NCBI RefSeq assembly: GCF_000716335.1
Contig: NZ_KL591013.1
Span: 264,238 to 328,237 of the forward strand
DNA: 64,000 nucleotides
DNA from: Streptomyces sp. NRRL S-118
GTDB taxonomy: Bacteria; Actinomycetota; Actinomycetes; Streptomycetales; Streptomycetaceae
Reading direction: 5' to 3'
The notes under the pieces are model-generated. The model searched no databases and was not told the origin of the DNA. It saw only the letters and a list, made by a program, of their open reading frames with translations. Below are positions 1,765-44,416 of the stretch, piece by piece (within the stretch, counting starts at the first letter, position 1; each line of letters opens with the position of its first letter). A program made the position numbers and the translations under genes.

Positions 1765-3096
1765 TCACACCTCGGAGTAGCTGAGCTGCCGCTTGGCGGG
1801 GATCTCCACGGGGCGGCGAAGGTATACCGCCCAGGTGACGGTCAGGCAGGCCGCGTAGAAGACGAGGAAGGCGACGAAGGCGGCGGTGCCGGTGCCGGCG
1901 GTCTGGAAGGACTGCCGGAAGGCGAGGTTGATGGCGAGCCCGCCGATCGCGCCGATCGCGCCGATCAGTCCGATCGCGGCGCCGGAGAGCCGCCGGCCGT
2001 ACGCGTCGGCCTCCTCTCCCGCCAGGCCCGAGGCGTGCGCCTTGGCCTGGAAGATGGCGGGGATCATCTTGAACGTGGAGCCGTTGCCGAGCCCGCTGAG
2101 GATGAACAGGGAGATGAAGCCGACGAGGAAGACGGCGAGCGACTCGATGACGGAGGCGTAGACGACCACACCGGTCGCGGCGGCCATGGCCACGAAGGTC
2201 CACAGCGTGATGCGGGCGCCGCCGTGCTTGTCGGCGAGGGAGCCGCCGAGCGGGCGGATCAGGGAGCCGAGCAGCGGGCCGATGAAGGTGAGGGACGCGG
2301 CCTGGAGCGGCGTACGCCCGAACTGGGTCTGGAGGACGAGGCCGAAGGCGAAGCTGTAGCCGATGAACGAGCCGAAGGTGCCGATGTAGAGGAACGCCAT
2401 GATCCAGGTGTGGGCGTCCTTGACCGCCTCCTTGACGGCGCCGGTGTCGTTCTTCACGGGCGCCAGGTTGTCCATGTAGAGCGCGGCGCACACGGCGGCG
2501 ATCACGATCAGCGGGATGTAGATCCCGAGCACGACCCGCGGCTGGGCCGCGCCCGCCGTACCGATGACGAGCAGGCCGACGAGCTGGACGACGGGGACGC
2601 CGATGTTGCCGCCGCCCGCGTTCAGCCCGAGGGCCCAGCCCTTCTTGTGGAGGGGGAAGAAGGCGTTGATGTTCGTCATCGACGAGGCGAAGTTGCCGCC
2701 GCCGACGCCGGTGAGCGCGGCGACCAGCAGGAAGGTGGTGTACGACGTCCCCGGCTCCATCACGGCGTACGCGGCGCCCGTGGGCAGCAGGAGCAGCAGC
2801 GCGCTGAAGATGGTCCAGTTGCGTCCGCCGAAGCGGGCGACGGCGAAGGTGTAGGGCACCCGGATCAGGGCCCCCACGAGCGTCGCCACCGCGATGAGGG
2901 AGAACTTGCCGGCCGGGTCGATGCCGTACTCCGGTCCCATGAACAGGACCATCACGGACCACAGCGTCCAGATGGAGAACCCGATGTGCTCGGAGAGGAC
3001 GGAGAAGAGGAGGTTGCGCTTGGCGATGCGCTCACCCTTCTCCCGCCAGAAGGTCTCGTCCTCAGGGTCCCACTGCTCGATCCACCGGCCGCTCAT
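1765..3096 (-). CDS. narK: Nitrate/nitrite transporter, MFS NarK type
   Basis: A 443-residue polytopic membrane protein with about 12 hydrophobic segments. Two glycine-rich nitrate-signature-like stretches are visible: LTGVGGGNFASSMTNINAFF near residues 130-150, and ISLFILSGLGNGSTFKMIPA near 330-350. The charged N-terminus (WIEQWDPEDETFWREKGERI) is characteristic of actinobacterial NarK proteins. It should move nitrate and/or nitrite across the cytoplasmic membrane; uptake versus export cannot be settled from sequence. The ATG has a clean GGAGG site 6 nt upstream. It is the first gene of the narK-nnaR operon and carries two dyads upstream (3120-3137 and 3157-3193). Confidence 0.92.
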   Translation of the reverse strand: MSGRWIEQWDPEDETFWREKGERIAKRNLLFSVLSEHIGFSIWTLWSVMVLFMGPEYGIDPAGKFSLIAVATLVGALIRVPYTFAVARFGGRNWTIFSALLLLLPTGAAYAVMEPGTSYTTFLLVAALTGVGGGNFASSMTNINAFFPLHKKGWALGLNAGGGNIGVPVVQLVGLLVIGTAGAAQPRVVLGIYIPLIVIAAVCAALYMDNLAPVKNDTGAVKEAVKDAHTWIMAFLYIGTFGSFIGYSFAFGLVLQTQFGRTPLQAASLTFIGPLLGSLIRPLGGSLADKHGGARITLWTFVAMAAATGVVVYASVIESLAVFLVGFISLFILSGLGNGSTFKMIPAIFQAKAHASGLAGEEADAYGRRLSGAAIGLIGAIGAIGGLAINLAFRQSFQTAGTGTAAFVAFLVFYAACLTVTWAVYLRRPVEIPAKRQLSYSEV

Positions 3097-3156: not shown

Positions 3157-3193
3157 GTTTCAGCCCGGTCATACGACGTGACCGGGCTGAAAC
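3157..3193. promoter_or_regulatory. Mirror-image GlnR-type box (or hairpin terminator) upstream of narK-nnaR
   Basis: A perfect 15-bp inverted repeat around a 7-nt centre. Read on the plus strand its right half is GTGAC-N6-GAAAC, exactly the a-site/b-site spacing described for Streptomyces GlnR (gTnAc-N6-GaAAc). The left half is the same motif on the other strand (ATGAC-N6-GAAAC). It lies 61 bp upstream of the narK ATG, and narK/nnaR are nitrogen-regulated in S. coelicolor, so a GlnR site is the favoured reading. The classical box has its two half-boxes in the same direction, so the inverted layout is unusual. The dyad also lies 77 bp past the stop of the upstream minus-strand operon and could act as its terminator; both roles are possible. 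Confidence 0.55.
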
Positions 3194-3270: not shown

Positions 3271-4164
3271 CTAGGACGCGCGGAAGGTCTCCCCGTACAT
3301 CTTCCAGACCAGCGGCGTCCTCAGGGTGAGGTTGCCGTCGCGCAGGAAGGCGCGCTGGGCCGTGTCGATGCGGCTGGTGTCCTGGTCGGCCTTCGACTCC
3401 GTCATCGCCTGGCGGCAGGCGTCGAGGAAGGCGTCCAGGTACTCCTTCTCCTTGCCGCCCTCCGCCTTGGTCTTGATCATGCCCCGGACCCGCTCGCGGA
3501 TCTCGTAGAAGCCGTTCTTGTCGATGCCGGGGCCGTGGAAGACCATGGCGTCGTAGTAGATGAACTGGCCGAGCGTCCCCAGGCCGTCCAGCTTGGCGAG
3601 GTCGACGGCGGGCTTGAAGTACATGCTGTCGCGGACCGCGTCCTGCGCCTTGCGGAAGGCGGGCTTCTCGCTCTCCGCCTGCCATGCCTCGACGAACCCG
3701 GTGCCCAGGCCCTCGTGCGAGTCCGTGCCGTCGACCGCCCGCAGTGCGGGCACGTACGGGGCCAGCGCGTTGTCCGGGTGCTCCTTGGTGTACGACTCGA
3801 CGAGGATCCGCATGTCCCTGGTGCCGGAGCAGAAGCCGATCACGCCTCCGCAGTAGCCGTCGCCGTCGGCGCTGTCGGCGATGTGGCCGTACAGCGTCCG
3901 CCAGTCCTTGGTGGAGTTCATGGCGGAGCCGAGGATCTGGTGGGCCAGCTCCTTCTTGTCCGGGGCCGCGAGCCCCGGCGGCATCTTGGCGAGCAGCTCC
4001 TCGGCCGACTCCAGCTCCTCCTCGGCGCGCTTGGCCGCGCCCTGGCTCTCCGACGCACCGGCCGCCTCCGACGCCTCGGGCTTCGGGGTGGGGGTGAGGG
4101 TGAAGATCGCCAGGACGAGGAGCGGGGCGACGGCGAACAGCAGCCACCTGGCACGCAGCATCAT
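3271..4164 (-). CDS. Membrane-anchored GH46 chitosanase homologue lacking the catalytic Glu
   Basis: A 297-residue protein. One N-terminal hydrophobic segment (WLLFAVAPLLVLAIFTL) acts as signal or anchor, followed by an Ala/Glu-rich linker, then a full-length GH46 domain from about residue 70. Against the Streptomyces N174 chitosanase as I remember it, the match is continuous: MNSTKDW, GGVIGFCSGTRDM, GLGTGF, LGQFIYYDAMVFHGPG and DTSRIDTAQR. The catalytic acid Glu22, found in the chitosanase motif AENS, is Met82 here (codon ATG, 3919-3921). Asp40 is kept as Asp100, exactly 18 residues later. Thr45, which positions the water, is Cys105, and Arg42 is Asp102. A glycan-binding or structural role is therefore more likely than hydrolysis. 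The start overlaps the acyltransferase stop (ATGA at 4161-4164), so translation is coupled. It is the last gene of the aminoglycan operon. Confidence 0.9.
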   Translation of the reverse strand: MMLRARWLLFAVAPLLVLAIFTLTPTPKPEASEAAGASESQGAAKRAEEELESAEELLAKMPPGLAAPDKKELAHQILGSAMNSTKDWRTLYGHIADSADGDGYCGGVIGFCSGTRDMRILVESYTKEHPDNALAPYVPALRAVDGTDSHEGLGTGFVEAWQAESEKPAFRKAQDAVRDSMYFKPAVDLAKLDGLGTLGQFIYYDAMVFHGPGIDKNGFYEIRERVRGMIKTKAEGGKEKEYLDAFLDACRQAMTESKADQDTSRIDTAQRAFLRDGNLTLRTPLVWKMYGETFRAS

Positions 4165-5816
4165 TTCTCGAGGCCCTTCCTGCTCCGCGACGCCGTGCCC
4201 GACGGCCACAGCCTGGGCCGCCGCTTGGCGGCCACGTCCTCCAGCCAGCCGAACATCAGGATGCAGTACGCGATCAGCGACCAGCTGAAGAGCAGGGTCG
4301 GCCACGGGCTGTTCATCAGCCACGGCAGGTCGCGCCACATCACCTCCAGCGACCACAGCCGGTTCCACATCGTCACGGCGATGGCGATGCACACGTTGTG
4401 CCAGAGGTAGACGGTCACCGCACGCGAGTTGAGGAGCGTGATGGCACCGTCGAAGCGCCGCAGCAGCCGGGGCCACTCGGACCACGACGGGCTGAAGTGC
4501 AGCAGCAGGAGGACGAAGCCCAGGCCCCAGAAGGCGGAGGCGAACGGCATGTTCCCCAGCTGGTTCTCGGCGCTCAGCCCGTGGTCGACCGCCCACCACA
4601 TGCCGAAGCCCATGATGAACGGCGCGACGGACGGGATCACGTAGGCGGGCAGCCGCTGCAGCACGCCCAGCTGGTGCGCCATGCCGAGGATCCAGCAGGC
4701 GCCGAACTCGCCGATCCCGTACAGGATCGGCGCGACCGACTCACCGGCCTCGAGGTAGCCGAAGTTGAGCGCGGCCATCAGGACGAGCGGCGCCGCGATC
4801 GTCAGCCAGGGCTGCTTGCGCAGCGCCACGAGGAACAGCGGGGACAGCAGCACGAACCACAGGTAGGCGCGGATGTACCACAGCGGTCCGGCGAACGGCT
4901 CCGCCCACGTGCCGGGCAGGATCCCGGGGACGCCGGCCAGTTCGGCGGCGTTCGGCGGGTCGCTCAGCGGCAGGACCCAGAACAGCAGCTCCAGCCACCA
5001 GGTGAGGGTGTCCTCGCCCTCGGCCGGGCCCCAGCCCTGGACGAGCATGCCGGTCACGCCGATGGCACCGGCCGCCCACAGCGGGGGCAGCAGGCGCCGG
5101 ACCCGGCTCTTGATGACCTGGACGGGCGGGCGCTTGAGGGACCGCGCCATCAGGTTGCCCGCAAGGGCGAACATGACGCCCATGGACGGGAAGACCAGCG
5201 GGAGCCACATCCAGCCGGTCAGGTGGTACAGCACGACCCGGAAGAGCGCGAGCGCCCGCAGCAGGTCGAAGTACCGGTCCCGGCCCGGCGCCTTGGGCGC
5301 GGCGGGGGCGGCGGTGTCCGTGGCGGCGGGCCCGGGGTCCGCGGTCTCCGGTGCGGCGAGGGTCGCGGTGGACGGCCCGGCCGGCGCGAAGGTGTCCGGT
5401 TCGGTCCCGTACCGCGCGTACGGCGACGGGGCGGTCCGCGCCCCGGCCGCCGGGCCCGGGTCCGGTTCCGTGCCGAACGGCGCGTACGGCCGTCCGCCCT
5501 GCTCCGCCCCGCTGGGCGCGAAGGGGTCCGGTTCCCGGCCGAACGGCGCGTACGGCGAGGAGGAGGCGGACTGCGTCCCCGACGGTGCGAAGGGATCGGG
5601 ACCCGGGGCCGCCGCCGGGTACGGCCGCGTGCCCTCGGGCTGCGCGGCGTGCCGGTCGTACGGCCGGTCGTCATGACCGCCGCCGCCGTACGGATCGTCG
5701 TTCCGCTGCTCGGTGCGGCGGCCGGCGCGGCGGTCGTCGAAGAAGCCGCCGGTGCCGTCACCGCTGCCGCTCCCGCGGCGGTCGTCGAAGAAGCCGCCGG
5801 TGTAGCCGTTCGTCAT
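4161..5816 (-). CDS. Acyltransferase-3 family membrane protein with a repetitive cytoplasmic N-terminus
   Basis: A 551-residue protein. Residues 1 to about 195 are low-complexity. They start with two copies of TGGFFDDRR (an exact 28-bp DNA repeat at 5727-5754 and 5775-5802), followed by several imperfect ~25-residue units containing PYAPFGTEPDPFAPSG. The C-terminal ~350 residues are an acyltransferase-3 (OafA/IcaC-like) domain: it opens DRYFDLLRALALFRVVLYHL with the conserved Arg and His, followed by about 10 membrane helices. Such proteins O-acylate extracellular polysaccharides. IcaC in the poly-GlcNAc operon of staphylococci belongs to this family, so O-acylation of the MatB product is a reasonable inference. 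The ATG shares an ATGA overlap with matB (5813-5816), and the stop overlaps the GH46 start in the same way. Confidence 0.88.
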   Translation of the reverse strand: MTNGYTGGFFDDRRGSGSGDGTGGFFDDRRAGRRTEQRNDDPYGGGGHDDRPYDRHAAQPEGTRPYPAAAPGPDPFAPSGTQSASSSPYAPFGREPDPFAPSGAEQGGRPYAPFGTEPDPGPAAGARTAPSPYARYGTEPDTFAPAGPSTATLAAPETADPGPAATDTAAPAAPKAPGRDRYFDLLRALALFRVVLYHLTGWMWLPLVFPSMGVMFALAGNLMARSLKRPPVQVIKSRVRRLLPPLWAAGAIGVTGMLVQGWGPAEGEDTLTWWLELLFWVLPLSDPPNAAELAGVPGILPGTWAEPFAGPLWYIRAYLWFVLLSPLFLVALRKQPWLTIAAPLVLMAALNFGYLEAGESVAPILYGIGEFGACWILGMAHQLGVLQRLPAYVIPSVAPFIMGFGMWWAVDHGLSAENQLGNMPFASAFWGLGFVLLLLHFSPSWSEWPRLLRRFDGAITLLNSRAVTVYLWHNVCIAIAVTMWNRLWSLEVMWRDLPWLMNSPWPTLLFSWSLIAYCILMFGWLEDVAAKRRPRLWPSGTASRSRKGLEK

Positions 5817-7999
5817 GCGACCGGTCTCCGATCGTCGCTGCGGGCGCCGCGCTGCGTGGGGATGGAGCCCGGTGCCTCCACGGCTCCGGTGCGGCGCAGC
5901 TTCTGCCAGCGCAGCCGGCCGCCGGTGAGAGCGGTGATCCAGGATTGGAGCAGCACCACGTACATCAGCTGCCGGTAGAGGATCTGCTGGAGCGGGAGGG
6001 AGATGAGGTGCGTCATCTTCTCCTTGTCGAGCCGGAACGCGTATGCCGCACACACCGCCTGCACCAGGAGGACTCCCAGCCACGCCACGATCGTCTTCTG
6101 GGTGGGCCCGAAGACCAGGCCGTAGAGCAGGAAGACGTCGATGAGCGGCGCGAGCAGCGGAGTGATGACCATGAAGAGCGACACCAGCGGCAGACCGACG
6201 CGGCCGAACCGGCCGGACGGGCCGCGGTCGAACACGGACCCGCGGTGCTTCCAGATGGCCTGCATGGTGCCGTAGCTCCAGCGGTAGCGCTGCGACCACA
6301 GCTGCTGGACGGACTCGGGGGCCTCGGTCCAGGCGCGGGCGTTCTCCGCGTACACGACGTGCCAGCCGTCGCGGTGGATCGCCATGGTGATGTCGGTGTC
6401 CTCGGCGAGGGTGTCCTCGCTCATGCCGCCGACCCGCTCCAGCGCGGTGCGGCGGAAGGCGCCGACCGCACCGGGGATGGTGGGCATGCAGCGCAGCACG
6501 TCGTACATGCGCCGGTCGAGGTTGAAGCCCATCACGTACTCGATGTGCTGCCAGGCGCCGATCAGGGTGTCGCGGTTGCCGACCTTGGCGTTGCCCGCGA
6601 CCGCGCCGACGCGCGGGTCGCCGAACGGCTGCACCAGCTCGCGGACGGTGGACGGCTCGAAGACCGTGTCGCCGTCCATCATCACGATGATGTCGTGGCT
6701 GGCGTGCGCGATGCCGTTGTTGAGGGCGGCGGGCTTGCCGGAGTTCTCCTGGCGGACGACCCGGACGTTCGGCAGCCACATCCGCTCGACGATGTCCGCG
6801 GTGCCGTCCGAGGAGCCGTCGTCGATGACGATGACCTCGACCGGGTGGTCGCTCGCCATGAGGGAGCGGACCGTGTTCTCGATGCACTCCTTCTCGTTGT
6901 ACGCCGGGACCAGCACCGTGACCGGTTCCGTGACGGGGTCGCCCCAGCGGAAGCCGCGCCGGCGCACCTTGCGGGCGTGCGCGAACGCCAGGACGAGCAT
7001 CAGCCCGAAGCGCCCGATGACGAGGACGCCGACGATGGCGAGGCCGCCCACCAGCACGCCGGTGATGTTCTCGGAGATGCCGACGGCGTAGACGAACGCC
7101 TTGCCCTTCCACAGCTCCGCGCCGCTCACCTCGGTGTGGGCGCTGGGCGCCCCGAGGGCCTGGGTGAGCGTGGTGAACTCGTAGCCCTTGGCCTTCTGCT
7201 GCGGCAGGAAGCGGGCGAGCGCGGCGACGGTCTGCTCGCGGTTGCCGCCGGAGTCGTGCATCAGCACGATCGCGCCCTTGCCGGACTTCGGCGTGGCGTT
7301 CTTGATGATCGTGTCGACGCCCTGGCGCCGCCAGTCGTGGCTGTCGGTGTCGTTGAAGGCGGAGATGTAGCCGCGGCTGCCGACGTACTTGATCAGGCCC
7401 CAGTTCTTGTTGTCCAGGTGCCAGACGAAGTTGGAGTACGGGGCGCGGAAGAGGGAGGAGCGCACACCGGTCGCCCCGGCGAGCGCCATCTGGTTCTGGG
7501 ACAGCTCCCAGTCGATGCGCTCCTCGGACTGGAGCGAGAGATCCGGGTGGTTGAAGGTGTGCAGGCCGACCTCGTGGCCCTCCTTGACCATCCGCTCGAC
7601 GAGGTCGGGGTGGCGGGCGGTCATGGCGCCGGTGACGAAGAAGACCGCACGGGCGTCGTGCTTCTTCAGCTCGTCGAGGACCTTGGGGGTCCAGACCGGG
7701 TCGGGGCCGTCGTCGAAGGTCAGGACGATCTTGTCATCGGGGACGTTGAGGCTGGCGGGCTTCTCGGGGTCCCGCGCGTCGATGACCGGGCCGCCCTTGT
7801 GCACGGCCGAAGGCACCTGGTCCCGCTCCTCCAGGAGCCGGATCCGGTGGTCGGGCCGGATCTCGTTGTGCACGTAGCCGCGCAGCATGAGCATCGCGAA
7901 GAGAGCGACCAGGAAGAGGGAGGGCAGCAGATAGCGCATGGGCAGCCTGCGCCGGACGGCGCGCACCTTCGTCGCGCGCCGTCTGCCTGAGGTCGTCAT
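5813..7999 (-). CDS. matB: MatB: polysaccharide deacetylase fused to GT2 processive N-acetylglucosaminyltransferase
   Basis: A 728-residue membrane protein. There is an N-terminal anchor (residues 22-39). The NodB-type deacetylase domain has metal and catalytic motifs TFDDGPD (94-100) and HTFNHP (147-152), and a later GAIVLMHD. A membrane pair lies near 305-340. The family-2 glycosyltransferase domain (about 358-620) has PAYNE, DGD (442-444), AEDTD (532-536) and QRYRW (570-574), the full D, DxD, ED, QxxRW set of processive synthases. The C-terminal helices probably form the glycan channel. All catalytic motifs are intact. It matches MatB of S. lividans/S. coelicolor, needed with matA for mycelial pellet formation, and is equivalent to staphylococcal IcaA plus IcaB in one chain. 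Its ATG directly follows the TAA of the upstream gene. Confidence 0.92.
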   Translation of the reverse strand: MTTSGRRRATKVRAVRRRLPMRYLLPSLFLVALFAMLMLRGYVHNEIRPDHRIRLLEERDQVPSAVHKGGPVIDARDPEKPASLNVPDDKIVLTFDDGPDPVWTPKVLDELKKHDARAVFFVTGAMTARHPDLVERMVKEGHEVGLHTFNHPDLSLQSEERIDWELSQNQMALAGATGVRSSLFRAPYSNFVWHLDNKNWGLIKYVGSRGYISAFNDTDSHDWRRQGVDTIIKNATPKSGKGAIVLMHDSGGNREQTVAALARFLPQQKAKGYEFTTLTQALGAPSAHTEVSGAELWKGKAFVYAVGISENITGVLVGGLAIVGVLVIGRFGLMLVLAFAHARKVRRRGFRWGDPVTEPVTVLVPAYNEKECIENTVRSLMASDHPVEVIVIDDGSSDGTADIVERMWLPNVRVVRQENSGKPAALNNGIAHASHDIIVMMDGDTVFEPSTVRELVQPFGDPRVGAVAGNAKVGNRDTLIGAWQHIEYVMGFNLDRRMYDVLRCMPTIPGAVGAFRRTALERVGGMSEDTLAEDTDITMAIHRDGWHVVYAENARAWTEAPESVQQLWSQRYRWSYGTMQAIWKHRGSVFDRGPSGRFGRVGLPLVSLFMVITPLLAPLIDVFLLYGLVFGPTQKTIVAWLGVLLVQAVCAAYAFRLDKEKMTHLISLPLQQILYRQLMYVVLLQSWITALTGGRLRWQKLRRTGAVEAPGSIPTQRGARSDDRRPVA

Positions 8000-9028
8000 T
8001 TACTGTGCGCCTTCCGCGGCCATCTGCTGGCCGTCGCTCTCTCCGACCGGCGGCTCGGTCGGTTCGTCCGTCGGGGTCGTCGGGGGGTCCGTGGGATCGC
8101 CCGGTTCCGGCGTCGGGACCGGCGGCTGGGAGGGGCCGCCACTGGTCGGCCTGACCGGCGTCGGCTGCTCGCCCGTGCCGGGTTCGGCCGGACGGCCGGT
8201 GTCCGCGCTGGGCCCGGTGGCGGGCGAGGCGGAGCTGCGGGGGTCCGCCGGGCCGGCCGGGATGCCGTCCGAGGAGGCGGGGCCGGAGGGCCGCGGGATG
8301 ACCGCGCCCGTGGAGTCGGTGGGCGCCGGGGCGCCGGGGGTGTCGCCGGTGGTGTCGTCGGCGCCGGGGCTGGCGGAGGTGGCGGGGACGACCTGCGTGG
8401 TGTCGGCCTTCTCCTCGCCGGCCGGGCCGGGTATCAGGAGCCAGGGTGCGCTGGAGTTGCCACCGATGACGGCGACGACGAGCGTCACGGCGTACACGGC
8501 GCAGGCGGCGGCCAGCACCCAGCCGAGCCTGCGGAGCTTCTTGCTCCGGCGGCCGCTCTCGTCGACGAAGACGGGGCCGTCGGAGGGCTCCTGCGGGGCG
8601 GGGCCGGCGGGCCCGGGGGCGGTGTGCGCGGCGGGGCCCGGCACGGACGCCGGTATGAGGGCCGTGGCGTCGGCGTCGGGGCCCGGCGCGGCGCCGGGCC
8701 GGAGGGGGCGGTCGAGCTGGACGGTCAGGTCGAGCGCCTGGGTGCCCGCGACCGCCGCGGCGCCGGCCGGGACCGGCCGGTCGAGCTGGACGGTCAGGTC
8801 GAGCGCCTGGAGCGGCTGGGTGTACGCCTCGGCGGACGAAACGGCGGAGGGAACGGCGGGCGAGCCGGCGTCCGGGCCGCCCGACGCGTCCTCGCGGGGC
8901 TCGCCGTGGGTCTCCGGGTACGTCTCGCTGTACGGGGATATGTAGGGCTGATCGAACGGCTCGTCGAACGGGTCCCGGTACGCGGCGTCACCGGGACGGG
9001 CGACGGCGTCGTCGTACGCGTCGTTCAT
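8000..9028 (-). CDS. matA: MatA-position single-pass membrane protein with proline/threonine-rich outer part
   Basis: A 342-residue protein. An acidic, proline-rich cytoplasmic part contains two exact copies of QALDLTVQLDRP, 23 residues apart. A basic SKKLRRLGW stretch precedes one membrane helix (VLAAACAVYAVTLVVAVIG), and an outer ~140-residue tail is rich in Pro, Thr, Ser and Gly. No catalytic domain is recognisable. The name matA rests on position directly upstream of matB and is only moderately secure. The ATG at 9028 is chosen because the DNA just before it (9035-9065) is AT-rich and promoter-like; GTG codons at 9064, 9076 and 9085 are alternative starts that would add up to 19 residues. 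The TAA stop directly abuts the matB ATG. Confidence 0.7.
   Translation of the reverse strand: MNDAYDDAVARPGDAAYRDPFDEPFDQPYISPYSETYPETHGEPREDASGGPDAGSPAVPSAVSSAEAYTQPLQALDLTVQLDRPVPAGAAAVAGTQALDLTVQLDRPLRPGAAPGPDADATALIPASVPGPAAHTAPGPAGPAPQEPSDGPVFVDESGRRSKKLRRLGWVLAAACAVYAVTLVVAVIGGNSSAPWLLIPGPAGEEKADTTQVVPATSASPGADDTTGDTPGAPAPTDSTGAVIPRPSGPASSDGIPAGPADPRSSASPATGPSADTGRPAEPGTGEQPTPVRPTSGGPSQPPVPTPEPGDPTDPPTTPTDEPTEPPVGESDGQQMAAEGAQ
8709..8810. repeat. Two identical 33-bp repeats inside matA
   Basis: The 33-bp sequence at 8709-8741 recurs without change at 8778-8810, a 69-bp (23-codon) period. It encodes QALDLTVQLDRP twice. DNA-level identity over 11 codons, wobble positions included, points to recent duplication or gene conversion. 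Confidence 0.9.
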
Positions 9029-9220
9029 CTGCCCGCCATAGGCATTTTCTCGCCACTTTTCCACTGCAGTACGCACATCCCCCACGGAGCCTGATCAAGG
9101 TGCGTCCGCAGCTGTCCGGTGTCACTCCCGGACCGGGCCCCCACCCTGTCCGGGCGCCCCCGCCCTCGTCGCACCCGGGTCATGAATGTAGCGCACGCGG
9201 CTGACAGCCGGGCTCACGGT

Positions 9221-33891: not shown

Positions 33892-35532
33892 TCAGCCGCG
33901 TACGAGGGCCCGGGCGACCCGCCGTACCGCGCCCCGCTGCGCCACCGGGGCCAGCAGCCGCCCCACGGTGCCGGCGGGCCGCCACCGCACCTGCAGCCGC
34001 CCCGCACCGTGCCCCTCCGGCTCCACGGTGATCCGGTGCCGCGCGGGCCCCGCCACCTCGAACGGCGTGAAGTCCGTCGGCGCGAGCAGCACGCCCGTGC
34101 TGCTCGTACGCCCGTCCGTCACCTCCAGGACGGGGTGGCGCACGCCCCAGAAGCCGTGGACGGGCAGGGCCACGGCCGAGAGGTCGAGCCGTGCGGTGCC
34201 CTCGAAGACGCCGCGTCCCGCCGGGTCCAGCCGTACCGGCACGGTGGTGCGCCGCCCGCCCGGCGCGAGGTGCAGGGACGCGGGCTGCGGCGCGAGCGGC
34301 AGGCGCAGCCCCGGGTCGTACGTCCGTACCGCCAGCTCCACGACCGCACCCGCGTGGACGAGCCCGGTGATCTCGTGCCGGAAGCGGGCGGCGCCGAACG
34401 GGCAGCCCCCCGGATCCAGTTCCGTCACGTCGAGGTCCTCGCGCGCCGCCGCGCCCACCGGCAGCGTGCCGCCCCAGTAGATGCGGCCCCGCGCCGGGTC
34501 CGTCACCGTCCGGCGCGGCCCCACGCCGTGGCCGAGGCCCCGGGCGGCCAGCCGCGCCTCCTCGTAGCGGCCCTCGCGCAGCAGCCCGATCACGACCCGC
34601 TCGTCGCGGCCCAGCCGCTCGTGCGCGGCGGCGCACAGCCCGTCCAGGTAGGGCACGGTCTCGGCGGCGAACCCGGCGACCCACGCCGGCTCGCGGTGGG
34701 GCAGGTCCCCCGCGTACAGCCGGAAGTCGTGGGAGAGGAACTTGAAGTCCTTCTCCTCCCGGACGGCCGCGGGGACGCCCTGCTCGGCCAGGAACGCGTC
34801 GATGAGCCGCGCGATCCGGATCCGGTCGCGCACGTTGGACATCAGGTGCCGCCGGTTGGAGATGGTCGCCGCTTCGCGAGCGGCGTGGGGGGCGATGTAC
34901 CAGCGGTAGACGGGTTCGGTGATGACGGTGAAGGCGCGGGCGAGGGTGTACGCCTGGGCCGAGAAGAGCTGGTCCTCGTAGTGCAGGCCCTCGGGGAAGC
35001 GCAGGCCGTGCCGGTCTAGGAACTCCCGGCGGTACATCTTGTTGGTCGACAGCGGCTCGAAGAGCATCCGCGGCTCCTCGGCGATGCCGTGGACCGTGCG
35101 GCGGTGGCCGAAGAGCGGTGCCATCCAGGTGGTGGTGGCGCCGGTGTCGGTGCGCACCCGCTCCACGGCGCCCATCACGAAGTCCGCCTCCGTCTCCCGG
35201 TGGGCGGCGAGCAGCAGTTCCACCGCCCGCGGGGGCAGTTCGTCGTCGCTGTCCAGGAACATCAGGAACGGGGCGCGGGCGATCTCCAGGGCGCGGTTGC
35301 GGGGCGCGGAGCAGCCGCCGCTGTTCTGCTCCAGGCGCAGCACGCGGATCCGGTCGTCCTTGGCGGCGAGCGCGGCCGCGACGTCGGGGGTGGCGTCCGT
35401 GGAGTGGTCGTCGCTGATGACGATCTCCAGGCCGCGGTGGGTCTGCGCGCGCACGGAGGCGACGGCGCGCGGCAGCCGTGCGGCGTCGTTGTGGACGATG
35501 ACGGTGACGGTGACGTCGGGGAGGGTCGTCAT
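33892..35532 (-). CDS. GT2 family glycosyltransferase with C-terminal beta-rich domain
   Basis: A 546-residue protein. The GT2 domain is at about 1-230: VTVTVIVHNDAARL, ISDDHSTD, and the DxD in LMFLDSDDELPP. A helical middle follows, then ~200 residues rich in beta-type sequence (VVELAVRTYDPGLRLPLAP, RTTVPVRLDPAGRGVFEGTA) reminiscent of the accessory region of TarS/TarP-like wall teichoic-acid glycosyltransferases; that comparison is tentative. It likely decorates the polyol-phosphate polymer made by the upstream enzyme. Its ATG overlaps the upstream stop (ATGA at 35529-35532), so the two are coupled. Confidence 0.85.
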   Translation of the reverse strand: MTTLPDVTVTVIVHNDAARLPRAVASVRAQTHRGLEIVISDDHSTDATPDVAAALAAKDDRIRVLRLEQNSGGCSAPRNRALEIARAPFLMFLDSDDELPPRAVELLLAAHRETEADFVMGAVERVRTDTGATTTWMAPLFGHRRTVHGIAEEPRMLFEPLSTNKMYRREFLDRHGLRFPEGLHYEDQLFSAQAYTLARAFTVITEPVYRWYIAPHAAREAATISNRRHLMSNVRDRIRIARLIDAFLAEQGVPAAVREEKDFKFLSHDFRLYAGDLPHREPAWVAGFAAETVPYLDGLCAAAHERLGRDERVVIGLLREGRYEEARLAARGLGHGVGPRRTVTDPARGRIYWGGTLPVGAAAREDLDVTELDPGGCPFGAARFRHEITGLVHAGAVVELAVRTYDPGLRLPLAPQPASLHLAPGGRRTTVPVRLDPAGRGVFEGTARLDLSAVALPVHGFWGVRHPVLEVTDGRTSSTGVLLAPTDFTPFEVAGPARHRITVEPEGHGAGRLQVRWRPAGTVGRLLAPVAQRGAVRRVARALVRG

Positions 35533-37748
35533 CGGCGTGCGGCCTCCTCGGGGGTGGGGGCGGGGGTGCGCCGGCCGACCGGCAGCACGGGCGGCAGGCC
35601 CTCCTCGCCCTCGCCCAGGAAGACGCGGCGTACGACGCGCTCGGCGGCGTGCCCGTCGTCGTACTCGCAGAACCGCAGCCGGAAGTCCTGGCGCTGTTTG
35701 CGGGCGGTCTCGTCGCACCAGGCGGTGGAGGTGAGGATGTCGGTGAGGTCGGCCCGGCTGCGGGCGACGGGGCCCGGGGCCTCGGCCGTCAGGTCGAAGT
35801 AGACGCCCCGGACGCGGGTGTACGTCTCCCAGTCGTCGGCGTGGATGACGATGGGCCGGTCGAGGTTGGCGTAGTCGAACATCAGCGACGAGTAGTCCGT
35901 GAGGAGGGCATCGGCGGCGAGCGCGAGCTCCTCGACGGGGTCCCAGCCGGTGACGTCGAGCACGCGGGGGTGGCGGGTGCGTCCCGGCAGCCGGTCGTGG
36001 AAGTAGTGGCCGCGCACGAGCAGCACGGTGTCGTCGCCGAGCCGGTCGGCCAGTTCCGGCAGGTCGAGGCGGGGTGTCCAGCGGGCTTCGTGGTCGCGGT
36101 GGGTGGGGGCGTACAGGACGGCCCGGCGGCCGGGTTCGATGCCGAGGCGTGCGCGGGCGGCCAGGACGTCCTCGGCGGTGGCCCGGTAGTAGACGTCGTT
36201 GCGGGGATAGCCGTAGTCGAGGGACCGGTAGCCGGAGGGGTAGGCGTGGGCCCAGGTCTCGGTGGAGTGGCTGTTGGCCGAGATGCTGTAGTCCCAGCGG
36301 TCGATGCGCTCAAGCAGCGCCTCGAAGTCGAGGCCCTGGGCGGCGGCCGGGTGGTCGCGCTGGTCGACGCCCATGCGCTTGAGCGGCGTGCCGTGGTGGG
36401 TCTGGACGTGGATGCTGCCCGGCCGTTTGACCACGTCGTTGGGGAAGTTGACATTGTTGACCAGGTACTTGGCGCGGGCGAGGACGTCCCAGTAGCGGGC
36501 GCTGCCGGGGACGACGTGGTCGGTGTCGGGCGGCAGCAGCGGGACGCGGTCCTCCTCGGTGATCCACACCTGGCGGATGTCGGGGGCGAGTTCGGTGAGT
36601 TCGGCGGCGATGGCGGCCGGGTTGCAGTGCACGCCGCGCCCCCAGTACGCGGAGAAGACCGCGAGGTCCTCGTCCAGGCGGCGGCGCAGGGTCCTGCGGT
36701 AGCGGCGCCGGGTACGTACGGCCGCCAGCTGCTCGGCGCGGGCCGCCACGGTGGCGCCGGCGGCGCGGCGCCTGTCGTTGGCGGCCCGCAGCGCCCGGTA
36801 GGGAAGGGCGGCGCCCCGGGTGAGGAGGTGGTGGCGCACGCCGTCGAGGCCGCCCGGGCCGCGGTGGCCCTCGGGGCGGAGGCGGGACGCGTGGGCGGCG
36901 GCGCGGCGGAAGTACTCGGGCACCAGGGCGGGGGGCAGTTCGTCGCGGCGGGCGAGCGTGGACAGGTAGTCGCCGGTCATCCGGTCGTAGAGCCGGTGGC
37001 GGACGGCGGGCGGAGCGTCGCGGGCGACGGCCAGCCGGTGGAGCCGCTCGTACTGGCCGAAGGCGGCGAAGTGCCGCTCGGGGCCGGCGGCGCGCCGCTG
37101 GGCGGGGCGGTCCTTGCGGTGGATGAGCGCCACGGTGTCGCAGCAGGCGACGCTCCGCGCCATCAGCAGCACGGCGTACGCCAGGTACAGCTCGTCGTGG
37201 CCCTCCGTGGCGACGAGCTCGGGGTGCTCGTCGAGGAGCCGGGCGCTGACGAGCCGGGCGCCGAGCACGGGGGCCAGGTCCAGCAGCGCGGGCCGCTCGG
37301 CGAGGCGGGCGGGGCCCGGCGGACGGGTGAGGAGCTCGGTGTCGCCGCTGGGGGCGGCGTCGTCCCACCAGTGGGCCACGCGGTGGTCGCACACCAGCAC
37401 GTCGGGCGCGTCCGGCGCCTCCGCCGGCAGGCGCGCGGCGAGGGCGGCCGCCGCCCCCTCGGGCAGCAGGTCGTCGGGGTGCAGGAACTGCAGGTACGTC
37501 CCGGTGGCGGCCCGCACCGCGGCGGCCCGGGCGGTGGCCGCGGGCGCGTGCGGCGAGACGGGCACCACGAGAACGCGCGGGTCGCGCATCTCGTGGGCCT
37601 CGGCGAGCGCGCGGGCCGGGGTGTCGTCGAGCGGGACGGTCACGACGACGTCGAGGTGGGCGTACGGCTGGGCGATGACGCTCTCCAGGCAGGCGCGCAG
37701 CCGGCTGAGCGGGGCGCGGCCGGACACGACGACGCTGAGACGGGCCAT
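35529..37748 (-). CDS. CDP-glycerol glycerophosphotransferase-type polymerase with GT2-like N-terminus
   Basis: A 739-residue protein. The N-terminal domain resembles GT2 (LSVVVSGRAPLSRLRACLES, LQFLHPDDLLPEG) but has HPDD in place of the usual DGDD/DSDD and may be inactive or altered. The C-terminal TagF-type domain is intact: VQTHHGTPLKRMGVD, LDYGYPRNDVYY, LTDYSSLMFDYANLDRPIVI. It is a second copy of the design seen at 28996-31257, probably acting on the same class of polymer. The ATG at 37748 is followed by LSVVVSG as expected. The 227-bp space upstream should hold its promoter. Confidence 0.88.
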   Translation of the reverse strand: MARLSVVVSGRAPLSRLRACLESVIAQPYAHLDVVVTVPLDDTPARALAEAHEMRDPRVLVVPVSPHAPAATARAAAVRAATGTYLQFLHPDDLLPEGAAAALAARLPAEAPDAPDVLVCDHRVAHWWDDAAPSGDTELLTRPPGPARLAERPALLDLAPVLGARLVSARLLDEHPELVATEGHDELYLAYAVLLMARSVACCDTVALIHRKDRPAQRRAAGPERHFAAFGQYERLHRLAVARDAPPAVRHRLYDRMTGDYLSTLARRDELPPALVPEYFRRAAAHASRLRPEGHRGPGGLDGVRHHLLTRGAALPYRALRAANDRRRAAGATVAARAEQLAAVRTRRRYRRTLRRRLDEDLAVFSAYWGRGVHCNPAAIAAELTELAPDIRQVWITEEDRVPLLPPDTDHVVPGSARYWDVLARAKYLVNNVNFPNDVVKRPGSIHVQTHHGTPLKRMGVDQRDHPAAAQGLDFEALLERIDRWDYSISANSHSTETWAHAYPSGYRSLDYGYPRNDVYYRATAEDVLAARARLGIEPGRRAVLYAPTHRDHEARWTPRLDLPELADRLGDDTVLLVRGHYFHDRLPGRTRHPRVLDVTGWDPVEELALAADALLTDYSSLMFDYANLDRPIVIHADDWETYTRVRGVYFDLTAEAPGPVARSRADLTDILTSTAWCDETARKQRQDFRLRFCEYDDGHAAERVVRRVFLGEGEEGLPPVLPVGRRTPAPTPEEAARR

Positions 37749-37975
37749 GGAGTCCTTCCGGGGCTGGGGCCTGCCCTGGGGAGCAGGCCGGATCGTGAGC
37801 GTGGTCCGGGGGGTGCGGATGCGAGGCGGAAGGAGGGTGCCTCCCCCGGCGCCCGATGGACAGCGGGGGCTCGGGCGGCCGGTGTCGGCGCCGGGGAAGC
37901 TCGCGCGGGGCAGCGGGAGAGGCTGCTCGTGCCCGGCCGCCGGCCGCCCGGCCGGCAGCCTCCGCAGGACGTCCC

Positions 37976-38350
37976 CTAATGACGTTGACCGGCGAAGACG
38001 GTGATCAGTCCGATCACGACGAGCAACGAGCCGGCCCAGGTCCACGGGGAGGTCCGCTCGTGCAGCAGGGTCGAGCCGGCCAGCACGATCAGCAGGTAGC
38101 CCAGGGCGTTGAAGGGGTACGCGACCGACAGCGGCACCCGGGCGAGGGTGGACATCCACGCCACGGCGGACACCGCGAAGACGGTGAGGCCGAGCACCAC
38201 CCAGGGTGTCGTCGCGGCGCGGGCGGCGAGGGAGCCGCCGGCCCGCTCGGCGGCGGTGGCGGCGGCGCGCATGCCGTGCTTGAGCATGATCTGCCCGGCC
38301 GCCGAGGAGAACACCGCGAACAGCAGCAGCAGGAGGCTGGCCGGGGTCAA
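37976..38350 (-). CDS. Small multidrug resistance/EamA-like four-helix membrane protein
   Basis: A 124-residue protein with four hydrophobic helices (SLLLLLFAVFSSAAGQIMLK; WVVLGLTVFAVSAVAWM; LSVAYPFNALGYLLIVLAGS; WAGSLLVVIGLITVFAGQ). The QIMLKHG after helix 1 and PLSVAYPF in helix 3 are typical of the SMR/EamA half-transporters, including the ArnE/ArnF group that flips undecaprenyl-phosphate sugars. Co-location with a polyprenyl-phosphate GT2 suggests such a flippase role (inference). I choose a TTG start at 38348-38350, just 10 nt after the upstream stop with GAGAGGCGG before it; no ATG or GTG is suitable. Confidence 0.78.
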   Translation of the reverse strand: MTPASLLLLLFAVFSSAAGQIMLKHGMRAAATAAERAGGSLAARAATTPWVVLGLTVFAVSAVAWMSTLARVPLSVAYPFNALGYLLIVLAGSTLLHERTSPWTWAGSLLVVIGLITVFAGQRH

Positions 38351-41385: not shown

Positions 41386-42456
41386 GTGAAAGCACTCGTA
41401 CTCTCCGGAGGAGCCGGGACCCGGCTGCGCCCCATCACGCACACCTCCGCCAAACAGCTCGTGCCCGTCGCCAACAAACCGGTGCTCTTCTACGGGCTCG
41501 AATCGATCGCCGCCGCCGGGATCCGGGACGTCGGGATCATCGTCGCGCCCGACACGGCCGGGGAGATCCGGGGCGCCGTCGGCGACGGCGCGCGCTTCGG
41601 CCTGCGGGTGACCTACCTCCCGCAGCACGCGCCGCTGGGCCTCGCCCACGCCGTGCTGATCGCCCGGGACTTCCTCGGCGACGACGACTTCGTGATGTAC
41701 CTGGGGGACAACTTCATCGTCGGCGGGATCACCGACCTGGTCGAGGAATTCCGCTCGACCCGCCCGGACGCGCAGATCCTCCTCACCAAGGTGCCCGACC
41801 CGCGCGCCTTCGGCGTCGCCGAGCTCGACGTGGAGGGGCGGGTGGCCCGCCTGGAGGAGAAGCCGGCCCACCCGCGCAGCGACCTCGCGCTGGTCGGGGT
41901 GTACCTGTTCTCCCCCGCCGTGCACGAGGCCGTCCGCGCGATCCGGCCGTCCGCGCGCGGCGAACTGGAGATCACCCACGCCCTGCAGTGGCTCATCGAC
42001 GCACGGCACACGGTCACGTCGACGATCGTCTCCGGCTACTGGAAGGACACCGGGAACGTCGAGGACATGCTGGAGGTGAACCGATCCGTCCTGGAGCTGC
42101 TCTCCCCGGCCAACGAGGGCTCGGTCGACGCCGCCACCGAGATCATCGGCCGGGTCCGCATCGGCGCCGGCGCGCGCGTGCGCGGCTCCCGCATCGTCGG
42201 CCCGGTCGTCATCGGGGCGGGCACGGCGGTGGAGAACTCCTACATCGGCCCCTCCACCTCGATCGCCGAGAACTGCCGGGTGACGGACAGTGAGATCGAG
42301 TACTCCATCGTGCTCAGCGGCTCGTCGCTGCACGGCGTGGGGCGCGTGGAGGCGTCCCTCATCGGCCGTAACGTCGAAATCACCCCCGCTCCGCCCATCC
42401 CGGCCGCCCACCGTCTGGTGCTCGGCGATCACAGCAAGGTGCAGATCTCCTCATGA
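41386..42456 (+). CDS. rmlA: Glucose-1-phosphate thymidylyltransferase, long form with left-handed beta-helix tail
   Basis: A 356-residue protein. The nucleotidyltransferase signature LSGGAGTRLRPITHTSAKQL is at residues 6-25; MYLGDNF and EEKPAHPRSDLALVGVYLF follow. From about 245 the sequence shows hexapeptide-like beta-helix repeats (IIGRVRIGAGARVRGSRIVG). It makes dTDP-glucose from glucose-1-phosphate and dTTP. The 355-residue type is the class seen in antibiotic and actinobacterial clusters (StrD-like), longer than the ~290-residue enterobacterial RmlA. The GTG at 41386 is preceded by GAGGCAGG. It overlaps rmlB by four bases (ATGA). Confidence 0.92.
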   Translation: MKALVLSGGAGTRLRPITHTSAKQLVPVANKPVLFYGLESIAAAGIRDVGIIVAPDTAGEIRGAVGDGARFGLRVTYLPQHAPLGLAHAVLIARDFLGDDDFVMYLGDNFIVGGITDLVEEFRSTRPDAQILLTKVPDPRAFGVAELDVEGRVARLEEKPAHPRSDLALVGVYLFSPAVHEAVRAIRPSARGELEITHALQWLIDARHTVTSTIVSGYWKDTGNVEDMLEVNRSVLELLSPANEGSVDAATEIIGRVRIGAGARVRGSRIVGPVVIGAGTAVENSYIGPSTSIAENCRVTDSEIEYSIVLSGSSLHGVGRVEASLIGRNVEITPAPPIPAAHRLVLGDHSKVQISS

Positions 42457-43445
42457 CCACCCCCGTCACCCGCCTCCTGGTGACCGGCGGCGCCGGATTC
42501 ATCGGCTCGCACTACGTCCGCACGCTGCTGGGGCTCTCGGGGCCCGGCCACCTCGAGGTGACGGTCCTCGACCGCCTCACCTACGCCGGCAACCCCGCCA
42601 ACCTCGACCCGGTCCGCGGTCACCCCGGCTTCGCCTTCGTGCACGGCGACATCCGGGACGCGGACCTGGTCGACAAGCTCGTCTCCGAGCACGACGGCAT
42701 CGTCCACTTCGCCGCCGAGTCGCACGTGGACCGCTCCATCCTCGGCGCCGCCGAGTTCGTCCGCACGAACGTGCTGGGCACGCAGACGCTGCTGGACGCG
42801 GCGCTGCGCCATCGCGTCCCCCGCTTCGTCCACATCTCCACGGACGAGGTGTACGGCTCGATCGAGACGGGCTCGTGGACGGAGGACGAGCCCGTACGGC
42901 CCAACTCGCCGTACGCCGCCTCCAAGGCGTCCAGCGACCTGATCGCCCTCGCGTACCACCGCACCCACGGCCTGGACGTGCGGGTGACGCGCTGCTCGAA
43001 CAACTACGGCCCGTACCACTTCCCCGAGAAGGCCGTCCCCCTCTTCATCACCCGCCTGCTGGAGGGCGGCCGGGTGCCGCTGTACGGGGACGGCTCGCAC
43101 GTACGGGACTGGCTGCACGTCGACGACCACGTGCGCGCGATCGAGCTGGTCCGGACGCGGGGCCGCGCGGGCGAGGTCTACAACGTCGGCGGCGGCACGG
43201 AGTTGTCCAACCGCGAGCTCACCGGCGCGCTGCTCGACGCCTGCGGTGCGGACTGGTCCCGGGTGGACCACGTCGAGGACCGCAAGGGACACGACCGGCG
43301 GTACTCCGTCGACTGGGCGAAGATCCGCGACGAGCTCGGCTACCGGCCGGCCAGGGACTTCGCGACGGGCCTGGCGGAGACGGTCGCCTGGTACCGGGAG
43401 AACCGCTCCTGGTGGCGGCCCCTGCTGAGCCGGGCGGCGCTGTGA
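42453..43445 (+). CDS. rmlB: dTDP-glucose 4,6-dehydratase
   Basis: A 330-residue extended SDR enzyme. The NAD-binding motif TGGAGFIGSHYV is at about 10-21. HISTDEVYGS supplies the catalytic Thr-Asp-Glu, and YAAS KASSD the Tyr-xxx-Lys pair (SPYAASKASSDLI). RCSNNYGPYHFPEKAVPLFI is diagnostic for RmlB. It converts dTDP-glucose to dTDP-4-keto-6-deoxyglucose. Its start overlaps rmlA and its stop overlaps the rmlD GTG, giving tight translational coupling. Confidence 0.95.
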   Translation: MTTPVTRLLVTGGAGFIGSHYVRTLLGLSGPGHLEVTVLDRLTYAGNPANLDPVRGHPGFAFVHGDIRDADLVDKLVSEHDGIVHFAAESHVDRSILGAAEFVRTNVLGTQTLLDAALRHRVPRFVHISTDEVYGSIETGSWTEDEPVRPNSPYAASKASSDLIALAYHRTHGLDVRVTRCSNNYGPYHFPEKAVPLFITRLLEGGRVPLYGDGSHVRDWLHVDDHVRAIELVRTRGRAGEVYNVGGGTELSNRELTGALLDACGADWSRVDHVEDRKGHDRRYSVDWAKIRDELGYRPARDFATGLAETVAWYRENRSWWRPLLSRAAL

Positions 43446-44416
43446 CCTGGCTGGTCACGGGCGCGGGCGGCATGCTCGGGCAGGACGTGCTGGCCTGCCT
43501 CGGCGGTGAGGGGACCGGCCTCACGCGCCGCCGGCTGGACGTGCGCGACCCGTCGGCCGTACGGGCCGCGCTGTCGGCCCTGCGCCCGACGGTGGTCGTC
43601 AACTGCGCGGCCTGGACGGCGGTGGACGACGCCGAGGCGCACGAGGCCGAGGCGCTCGCGGTGAACGGCACGGGTGTGCGGCACCTGGCCGAGGCGTGCG
43701 CCGCGGCGGGCGCGCGGCTGCTGCACGTCTCCACGGACTACGTCTTCGACGGCCGCGCGCGCGTGCCGTACGCCGAGGACGCGGCGCCCGCCCCGCGCAC
43801 CGCGTACGGCCGCACCAAACTGGCGGGCGAGCGCGCCGTCCTGGAGGTGCTCCCCGAGGACGGCTACGTGGTGCGGACGGCCTGGCTGTACGGGGCGGGC
43901 GGCGACAACTTCGTCCGCACCATGCTCCGGCTGGAGGCGTCGCGCCCCTTCGTGGACGTGGTGGACGACCAGCGCGGCCAGCCGACATGGAGCGCCGACG
44001 TGGCGCGGCGCCTGGTGGACCTGGGGCGCCGCGACGCTCCCCCGGGCGTCTACCACGCGACGAGCGCGGGCGACGGCACCTGGTACGACCTCGCCCGTGA
44101 GACCTTCCGGCTGCTGGGCGCGGCGCCCGGGCGCGTCCGCCCCACGTCGAGCGCGGCCTTCCCCCGCCCGGCGGCGCGCCCCGCGTACAGCGTGCTGGCC
44201 CACCGGCGGTGGCGGGACGCGGGCCTGACGCCCCTTCGGGACTGGCGGGAGGCGCTGGCCGAGGCGCTGCCCGCGGTGCTCGCCGGCCGGTTCCAGGGGC
44301 GCGGGCACCGCGGACGGCCCGGGTCGAACACACGTAGTGCTGCCGTACATCCATACGACCGCCTCGTACGTCTTGTATCGGGGTCCGCCTACCGGCCCGG
44401 CCCCTTCTCGACGTGA
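43442..44416 (+). CDS. rmlD: dTDP-4-dehydrorhamnose reductase
   Basis: A 324-residue SDR protein. TGAGGMLGQDV forms the nucleotide loop, STDYVFDG and YGRTKLAGE hold the Ser/Thr and Tyr-xxx-Lys catalytic residues, and RTAWLYG and GQPTWSADVAR are typical of RmlD. It reduces dTDP-4-keto-L-rhamnose to dTDP-L-rhamnose. The GTG start overlaps the rmlB stop as GTGA (43442-43445). The C-terminal ~40 residues after ALPAVLAG are Arg/Ser-rich and unlike the family, so the reading frame may simply run on past the folded domain. The D,D-carboxypeptidase start lies 19 bp after the stop. Confidence 0.93.
   Translation: MTWLVTGAGGMLGQDVLACLGGEGTGLTRRRLDVRDPSAVRAALSALRPTVVVNCAAWTAVDDAEAHEAEALAVNGTGVRHLAEACAAAGARLLHVSTDYVFDGRARVPYAEDAAPAPRTAYGRTKLAGERAVLEVLPEDGYVVRTAWLYGAGGDNFVRTMLRLEASRPFVDVVDDQRGQPTWSADVARRLVDLGRRDAPPGVYHATSAGDGTWYDLARETFRLLGAAPGRVRPTSSAAFPRPAARPAYSVLAHRRWRDAGLTPLRDWREALAEALPAVLAGRFQGRGHRGRPGSNTRSAAVHPYDRLVRLVSGSAYRPGPFST

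Follow-up and report, generated by a model that had tools for sequence, protein, structure and literature searches.

A GH46 chitosanase homologue without the standard catalytic residues as the fourth gene of a Streptomyces mat operon

The window, a stretch of 64,000 nucleotides from Streptomyces sp. NRRL S-118, carries a mat operon in which a gene of the GH46 chitosanase family follows those for a MatA-like protein, the synthase MatB and an acyltransferase 3 protein (AT3) (Table 1). All four genes run in the same direction and are tightly packed. The TAA stop codon of MatA abuts the ATG of MatB, and both MatB and AT3 as well as AT3 and GH46 overlap in the motif ATGA, so that the coupling to acyltransferase and MatB put forward in the original prediction is borne out at both junctions. 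This arrangement was found in three genomes, with the AT3/GH46 overlap present in each. The top NCBIfam match of MatB was PgaC_IcaA (E = 2.1e-58) with 198 bits, which is under the cut-off of 422, and the same search assigned neither the GH46 protein nor AT3 nor MatA to a family. From its position, AT3 was taken as the IcaC-like SCO2961 type; SCO2960 appears in one paper as an RT-qPCR target. The hairpin behind the GH46 stop codon is the probable end of the mat transcript, and it is followed by a PF07690 transporter gene, which we take to be narK. A NarK-like gene lies downstream in GH46-containing and in many GH46-less mat loci. Elsewhere in the window, a CDP-glycerol glycerophosphotransferase domain protein (35529-38159, minus strand) and an RmlD-type protein (42290-44416, plus strand) point to a second surface-polymer gene group.

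Table 1. Features of the mat operon and its GH46 gene in the window; residue numbers of the enzyme N174 were transferred by alignment.
Feature	Position	Strand	Basis
NarK-like MFS transporter	1765..3096	-	PF07690, synteny
Perfect 15-bp hairpin between GH46 stop and narK	3157..3193	-	-34.8 kcal/mol, z -5.2
GH46 homologue, 297 aa, mat operon gene no. 4	3271..4164	-	ORF call
GH46 domain, residues 76-285	3310..3939	-	PF01374 profile match
Cys250 codon, at Arg190 (Arg-Asp-Arg network)	3415..3417	-	alignment
Cys105 codon, at water-positioning Thr45	3850..3852	-	alignment
Asp102 codon, at Arg42	3859..3861	-	alignment
Asp100 codon, equivalent to general base Asp40	3865..3867	-	alignment
Met82 codon, at general acid Glu22	3919..3921	-	alignment
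Hydrophobic segment at the N-terminus (residues 8-24), interpreted as membrane anchor	4093..4143	-	hydropathy 2.57
Acyltransferase 3 protein (AT3)	4161..5816	-	PF01757, E = 2.5e-22; ATGA overlap at both ends
MatB, CE4 polysaccharide deacetylase and GT2 synthase	5813..7999	-	PF01522, PF13641
MatA-like protein, ORF start uncertain	8000..9085	-	no Pfam family; MatA match in 37/40 fetched regions

The predicted full-length kinship with the Streptomyces GH46 enzymes was confirmed. The PF01374 profile matches the product over positions 1-210 of 210 (E = 3.6e-83, over the curated cut-off), the alignment with CsnN174 (1CHK) and SACTE_5457 (4ILY) is free of gaps, and the two-lobed, lysozyme-like chitosanase fold agrees with membership in the family. 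No PgaB entry occurred among the structural matches listed for the product. The hydrophobic segment is followed by a charged linker up to about residue 62, and by eye neither a signal-peptidase nor a lipobox site follows residues 8-24 in the product sequence. In the predicted structure, residues 1-40 have a pLDDT below 50 and a helix is found at 35-53.

At the active site, all four residue assignments that had been predicted for the window protein hold: Glu22 is Met82, Asp40 is Asp100, Arg42 is Asp102 and Thr45 is Cys105. Five further changes were not part of that prediction, namely Arg190 to Cys250, Tyr34 to His94, Gln31 to Leu, Glu197 to Ser and His200 to Asp. A sequencing artefact is an unlikely source of these substitutions, since other records carry identical ones. 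In a tree of 147 rows, calculated with the catalytic columns left out, the protein belongs to a clade of ten sequences on a single branch (P0001-P0010, SH-aLRT 100), and operon context is available for three of them, i.e., the window, P0005 from strain CB03234 and P0010 from strain ISL-96. A second draw of genomes from the genus, made to extend the clade, gave largely the same ones. The relatives P0003, P0005 and P0010 are annotated as chitosanase in their source records, and this label in Streptomyces thus also covers proteins without the catalytic set.

Within the clade, Met22 is found in 9 of 10 sequences, compared to Glu in 27/27 canonical rows, while Cys45, Cys190, His34 and Leu31 are fixed in 10/10. 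Residue 42 is Asp in eight cases, Ser in one and Asn in one, and residue 197 is Ser, Ala or Pro. The standard catalytic set is therefore missing, as had been claimed; the retention of Asp40, which was part of the same claim, is true for the window and 9/10 of the clade but not general, with His in ISL-96. On the ligand side, Gly50, Thr55, Asp57 (the -2 subsite residue for GlcN), Tyr122, His150 and Pro152 are retained in all ten sequences. The altered sugar contacts are those at 31, 34, 42, 197 and 200; the -1 and +1 subsites are remodelled and the -2/-3 side is kept. The one sequence that retains Glu22, P0009 (source name S. sannanensis), already has Cys45, Asp42 and Cys190, and this suggests that Thr45 and Arg42 were lost before Glu22. 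When the nine Met22 rows are constrained to a single group, the topology scores better (p-AU 0.86), so the quick tree may misplace P0009, and a single loss of Glu22 in the clade would be compatible with the constrained tree but not established by it. Outside the clade, P0112 combines Cys45 with Arg190, and one cysteine does not strictly require the other there.

The same tree separates 27 canonical rows from a group of 120 rows that includes the clade (SH-aLRT 99). The canonical rows carry Glu22, Asp40, Arg42 and Thr45 throughout, with Arg/Glu at positions 42/197. Since the rows of the larger group were collected for their resemblance to the window protein, its frequencies are not natural ones: among the 110 non-clade rows, Arg42 is found in 7 and Asp57 in 109, and residue 197 is Lys or Arg in 93 and Glu in 9. 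These closest relatives (53-68% identity) share the hydrophobic N-terminus, the linker and the remodelling at 31/34/42/197/200 with the window protein. They differ from it by lying outside the mat operon, by keeping Glu22, Asp40 and Thr45 together in 82/110 rows, and by the Lys/Arg197 that most of them carry. A hydrophobic N-terminal stretch of the same kind was seen in all 15 N-termini examined. When the ORFs of 80 loci were roughly clustered, 30 loci fell next to a gltD cluster (gltD/gltB) and 29 next to a desaturase cluster, where an ABC protein and SsgA are mostly found as well. The residues equivalent to 42 and 197 are reported to be hydrogen-bonded in OU01 (PMC4663542), and their frequent replacement in the subfamily by a neutral residue at 42 and a positive one at 197 would suit a charge inversion better than plain decay. 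This is a tendency only, because Arg42 occurs in 4 and Lys/Arg197 in 9 of 16 further, hand-picked subfamily genomes (14, plus G205 and G361) that were compared by plain tblastn alignment.

Several relatives deserve mention on their own. Eleven rows (L067-L073, L077-L079, L081) keep Glu22 and Asp40 with Thr45 replaced by Ala (9) or Asn (2), and they form a second impaired subclade, mostly by the desaturase/SsgA locus. Six others (L045, L048, L049, L059, L063 and G202, L390) have Asp in the place of the general acid, and this shorter acid might still work. In L374 (G205), the active site is canonical-like, and a lipobox-like Cys was noticed by eye behind the hydrophobic stretch. We also considered whether the Met/Cys/Asp set could be general to such Streptomyces GH46 proteins and rejected this, as 70 of 78 non-mat loci keep Glu22; in this survey of relatives, 78/80 loci show no mat locus, eight of them with only a 28-31% MatB match and a few being short on one side.

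The presence of the GH46 gene in the operon is a local addition and not a general component of mat loci. Three genomes have it there: that of the window, CB03234 (L002, with G005/L143 counted as the same) and ISL-96 (L003 = G448). The original prediction had named an operon copy with Glu22 as the case against it; none was found, and all three copies have Met together with Cys45. Its description of the gene as locked into the operon is correct for this small clade but does not extend to other mat loci. Forty mat regions were hand-picked from the MatB matches (G005 contributed one, G347 two and other Streptomyces 37). The GH46 gene sits between AT3 and narK in G005, and none of the 37 other Streptomyces regions shows a GH46 match, the L172 region spanning only 5.2 kb. 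AT3 and narK were both found in 26 of these 37, at a distance of 123-253 bp in 16 and 318-5019 bp in 10. With gaps of 3.4-5 kb without GH46 in L163, L147 and L174, the site may accept other genes too. Among 110 genomes with both GH46 and matB places among the matches listed, GH46 is closer than 20 kb to matB in three, and one of these is divergent.

The hairpin is common to the window and G005, and was not found downstream of GH46 in ISL-96. As a nearly identical 37-nt hairpin follows AT3 in L144 and L145, which have no GH46, the GH46 gene was most likely inserted between AT3 and a pre-existing hairpin. In all three genomes with the operon arrangement, the operon copy is the only GH46 match, and relocation is therefore as likely as duplication. 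The divergent case is G347 (L142:3941-4834), where a GH46 gene with Val22 and retained Arg42 points away from matA, with a tRNA-like sequence recognized by eye about 0.7 kb past it. Its interpretation as convergence was rejected, since the sister row from G023 (L192), whose matB was not among the matches listed, also has Val22; the change to Val22 probably preceded the adjacency to matA.

With regards to the subfamily as a whole, its co-occurrence with MatB was followed across 393 genomes of the genus, with thresholds of E <= 1e-88 for a subfamily match (143 genomes) and E <= 1e-290 for MatB. MatB is present in 140/143 subfamily genomes, compared to 59/142 genomes with only other GH46 genes and 42/104 without any GH46 (101/246 combined). 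Four borderline genomes with a canonical active site, one of them with MatB, were excluded from the count. GH46 genes outside the subfamily are not associated with MatB and serve as an internal control. The raw p of 9e-35 ignores relatedness. Independent pairs were drawn on a single-gene secA tree of 140 genomes; in the window, secA and mat are about 50 kb apart. Of the changes in 17-18 pairs, about 5.9 were concordant, 0.2-0.4 discordant and 11-12 uninformative, equivalent to a corrected median p of 0.03-0.06 with a range of 0.008-0.375 over the pairings. The association is thus suggestive. It concerns the subfamily and not the window clade, for which it is partly trivial, the gene being in the operon. 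The three MatB-less subfamily genomes are G015 (Ala22/Leu42, L194), G205 with its canonical-like site and G361 (Asp42/Ala197).

GH46 chitosanases cleave beta-1,4 linkages. Their general acid is described as "invariably a glutamate", Ser as a tolerated replacement of Thr45 and Asp57 as the GlcN determinant, although one active chitosanase from Janthinobacterium is reported to be without the Asp and Arg (PMC4663542). In CsnN174, any change of Arg42 is stated to cause a drastic loss of activity, and with R42E and R42K the Tm shift on chitosan rises three- to four-fold, from about 4.5 to 15-19 °C (PMC3848431). For these two mutants, our calculation from the tables of that paper gives a Km raised 8- to 17-fold and a specific activity reduced to 1.7-2.6%, so losing Arg42 does not by itself abolish activity, nor does it simply make binding tighter. 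The combined loss of the acid, of Arg42 and of the Thr that holds the water should stop the inverting reaction, and we infer strongly that the proteins of the window clade are inactive. Binding can outlast catalysis in GH46, judging by analogy from general-acid mutants that were crystallized in complex with GlcN oligomers (6lwu and 7c6d by their titles; OU01 in PMC4663542), and polymer binding by the window clade is inferred with moderate confidence. Of the proposed conversion from an enzyme into a binding module, the loss of the catalytic set next to a kept -2/-3 side stands, and the binding itself is putative.

In S. lividans, the matAB product is reported to be PNAG, which drives pellet formation (PMC5972031, PMC4391728). 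Our best reading, on which we are evenly divided, is that the window protein is a non-catalytic, GlcN-binding and membrane-tethered accessory of PNAG synthesis, encoded by the fourth operon gene. A membrane-tethered GH46 protein from a MatB-associated Streptomyces subfamily would have become gene no. 4 of a PNAG operon and lost catalysis. It would most likely be located next to MatB and the acyltransferase, at the external face of the membrane, and its GlcN-reading -2/-3 half-cleft may hold or guide the nascent, partly de-N-acetylated polymer, a role comparable to that of the C-terminal domain of PgaB in Gram-negative PNAG export. Holding the nascent chain would be the simplest role for an anchored protein whose operon also encodes a deacetylating synthase. 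The ligand may be something other than chitosan, since the -1/+1 contacts are remodelled and the MatAB polymer is described as beta-1,6-linked (PMC5972031). A beta-1,6 PNAG in a cleft that serves beta-1,4 chains is the main chemical doubt about the polymer-holding reading, and the relaxed dN/dS, the many changed contacts, the restriction to three genomes and the borderline association of the subfamily also count against it.

The gene could instead be a decaying remnant that landed in the operon under weak selection, with Met22, Cys45 and Asp42 as products of drift, and we consider this rather unlikely. The Nei-Gojobori dN/dS of GH46 is 0.41 between the window and CB03234 and 0.54 and 0.57 in the pairs with ISL-96, compared to 0.18-0.30 in four pairs of unlinked relatives; this comparison weighs more than the absolute values, because the high G+C content probably pushes the latter upward. 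Neighboring genes reach 0.10-0.30 (MatB), 0.16-0.21 (NarK), 0.42-0.64 (AT3) and 0.67-0.74 (MatA). The higher values of the clade speak for decay, as do the additional loss of Asp40 in ISL-96 and the 11 changes of the Glu22 state on the tree, which imply repeated loss in the subfamily. However, dN/dS stays below 1, the GH46 matches in the window, CB03234 and ISL-96 genomes contain no stop codons, the ATGA coupling is retained in 3/3, and the replaced residues are uniform across the clade. The fold sites also resist change: with the functional residues left out, 31/93 positions fixed in the canonical rows vary in the clade, versus 67/118 of the others (Fisher p=0.0008). Constraint on the GH46 protein is relaxed but real. 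The expected conservation of the new residues alongside purifying selection is accordingly found in part, with Met and Cys in 3/3 operon copies and dN/dS below 1, but with a constraint weaker than in the unlinked relatives.

A different role for the intact fold would be that of a protein-protein scaffold, a rigid body fastening MatB or the acyltransferase to which sugar binding is irrelevant. An anchor with a charged linker helix, two membrane proteins as operon partners and the lost -1/+1 contacts would fit such a scaffold, but -2/-3 contacts that are invariant in the clade are unexpected for an unused cleft, which makes the idea improbable. The fixation of new residues, together with Asp40 in 9/10, could also be read as the mark of a hydrolase, or a transglycosylase, whose mechanism or substrate (e.g., PNAG) has changed, working via Asp100 or His94/Asp102; a changed mechanism had been the second option of the original prediction. 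The positive charge that often shifts from 42 to 197 in the subfamily is a hint of a possibly active, changed chemistry there. Within the clade, however, residue 197 is Ser, Ala or Pro, Arg42 is gone, 9/10 members have no acid at 22, Cys45 is universal and ISL-96 lacks even Asp40, and we regard retained activity as the least probable of these explanations.

Beyond the polymer-holding reading of the single gene, a wider one can be offered tentatively, and we consider it possible but doubtful. The tethered, MatB-dependent GH46 subfamily would serve PNAG synthesis as a Gram-positive, PgaB-like counterpart with often inverted 42/197 charges, and the window clade would have moved into the operon and gone from cutting to polymer holding, perhaps with a cleft reshaped by Cys45/Cys190. 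This MatB-linked subfamily is the broader lead and worth more than the single gene. Pellet formation is a trait of industrial importance, and if the anchored subfamily belongs to the PNAG machine, it would supply a concrete missing factor for it. The window clade would then represent a natural experiment, with catalysis given up and the cleft kept.

No description of a GH46 pseudoenzyme, a GH46 gene in a mat locus or an anchored, Arg42-less subfamily was found in the open-licence literature. Compared to the GH46 chitosanases CsnN174 (1CHK), SACTE_5457 (4ILY) and OU01 (4OLT/4QWP), which are catalytic, the window protein is without the general acid, Arg42, Thr45, Arg190, Glu197 and His200, appears membrane-anchored by its sequence and lies in a PNAG operon. 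The C-terminal domain of PgaB (GH153, pgaABCD) is likewise a glycoside-hydrolase domain of a PNAG synthesis and deacetylation machine, and is reported to bind PNAG and to be critical for export (PMC5933820). The window GH46 belongs to another family, is a separate polypeptide not fused to the deacetylase and has a Gram-positive membrane anchor; PgaB hydrolyses dPNAG, whereas the window protein has no GH46 catalytic set. For MatAB, no PgaB-like hydrolase domain is named in the accessible text of PMC4391728 and PMC5972031, and the word chitosanase has 0 occurrences in their main text. With matAB of S. lividans and S. coelicolor and with icaADBC, as described there, the locus shares matA, matB (CE4 and GT2) and a downstream IcaC-like acyltransferase gene, and it differs from them by the addition of GH46 as a fourth gene.
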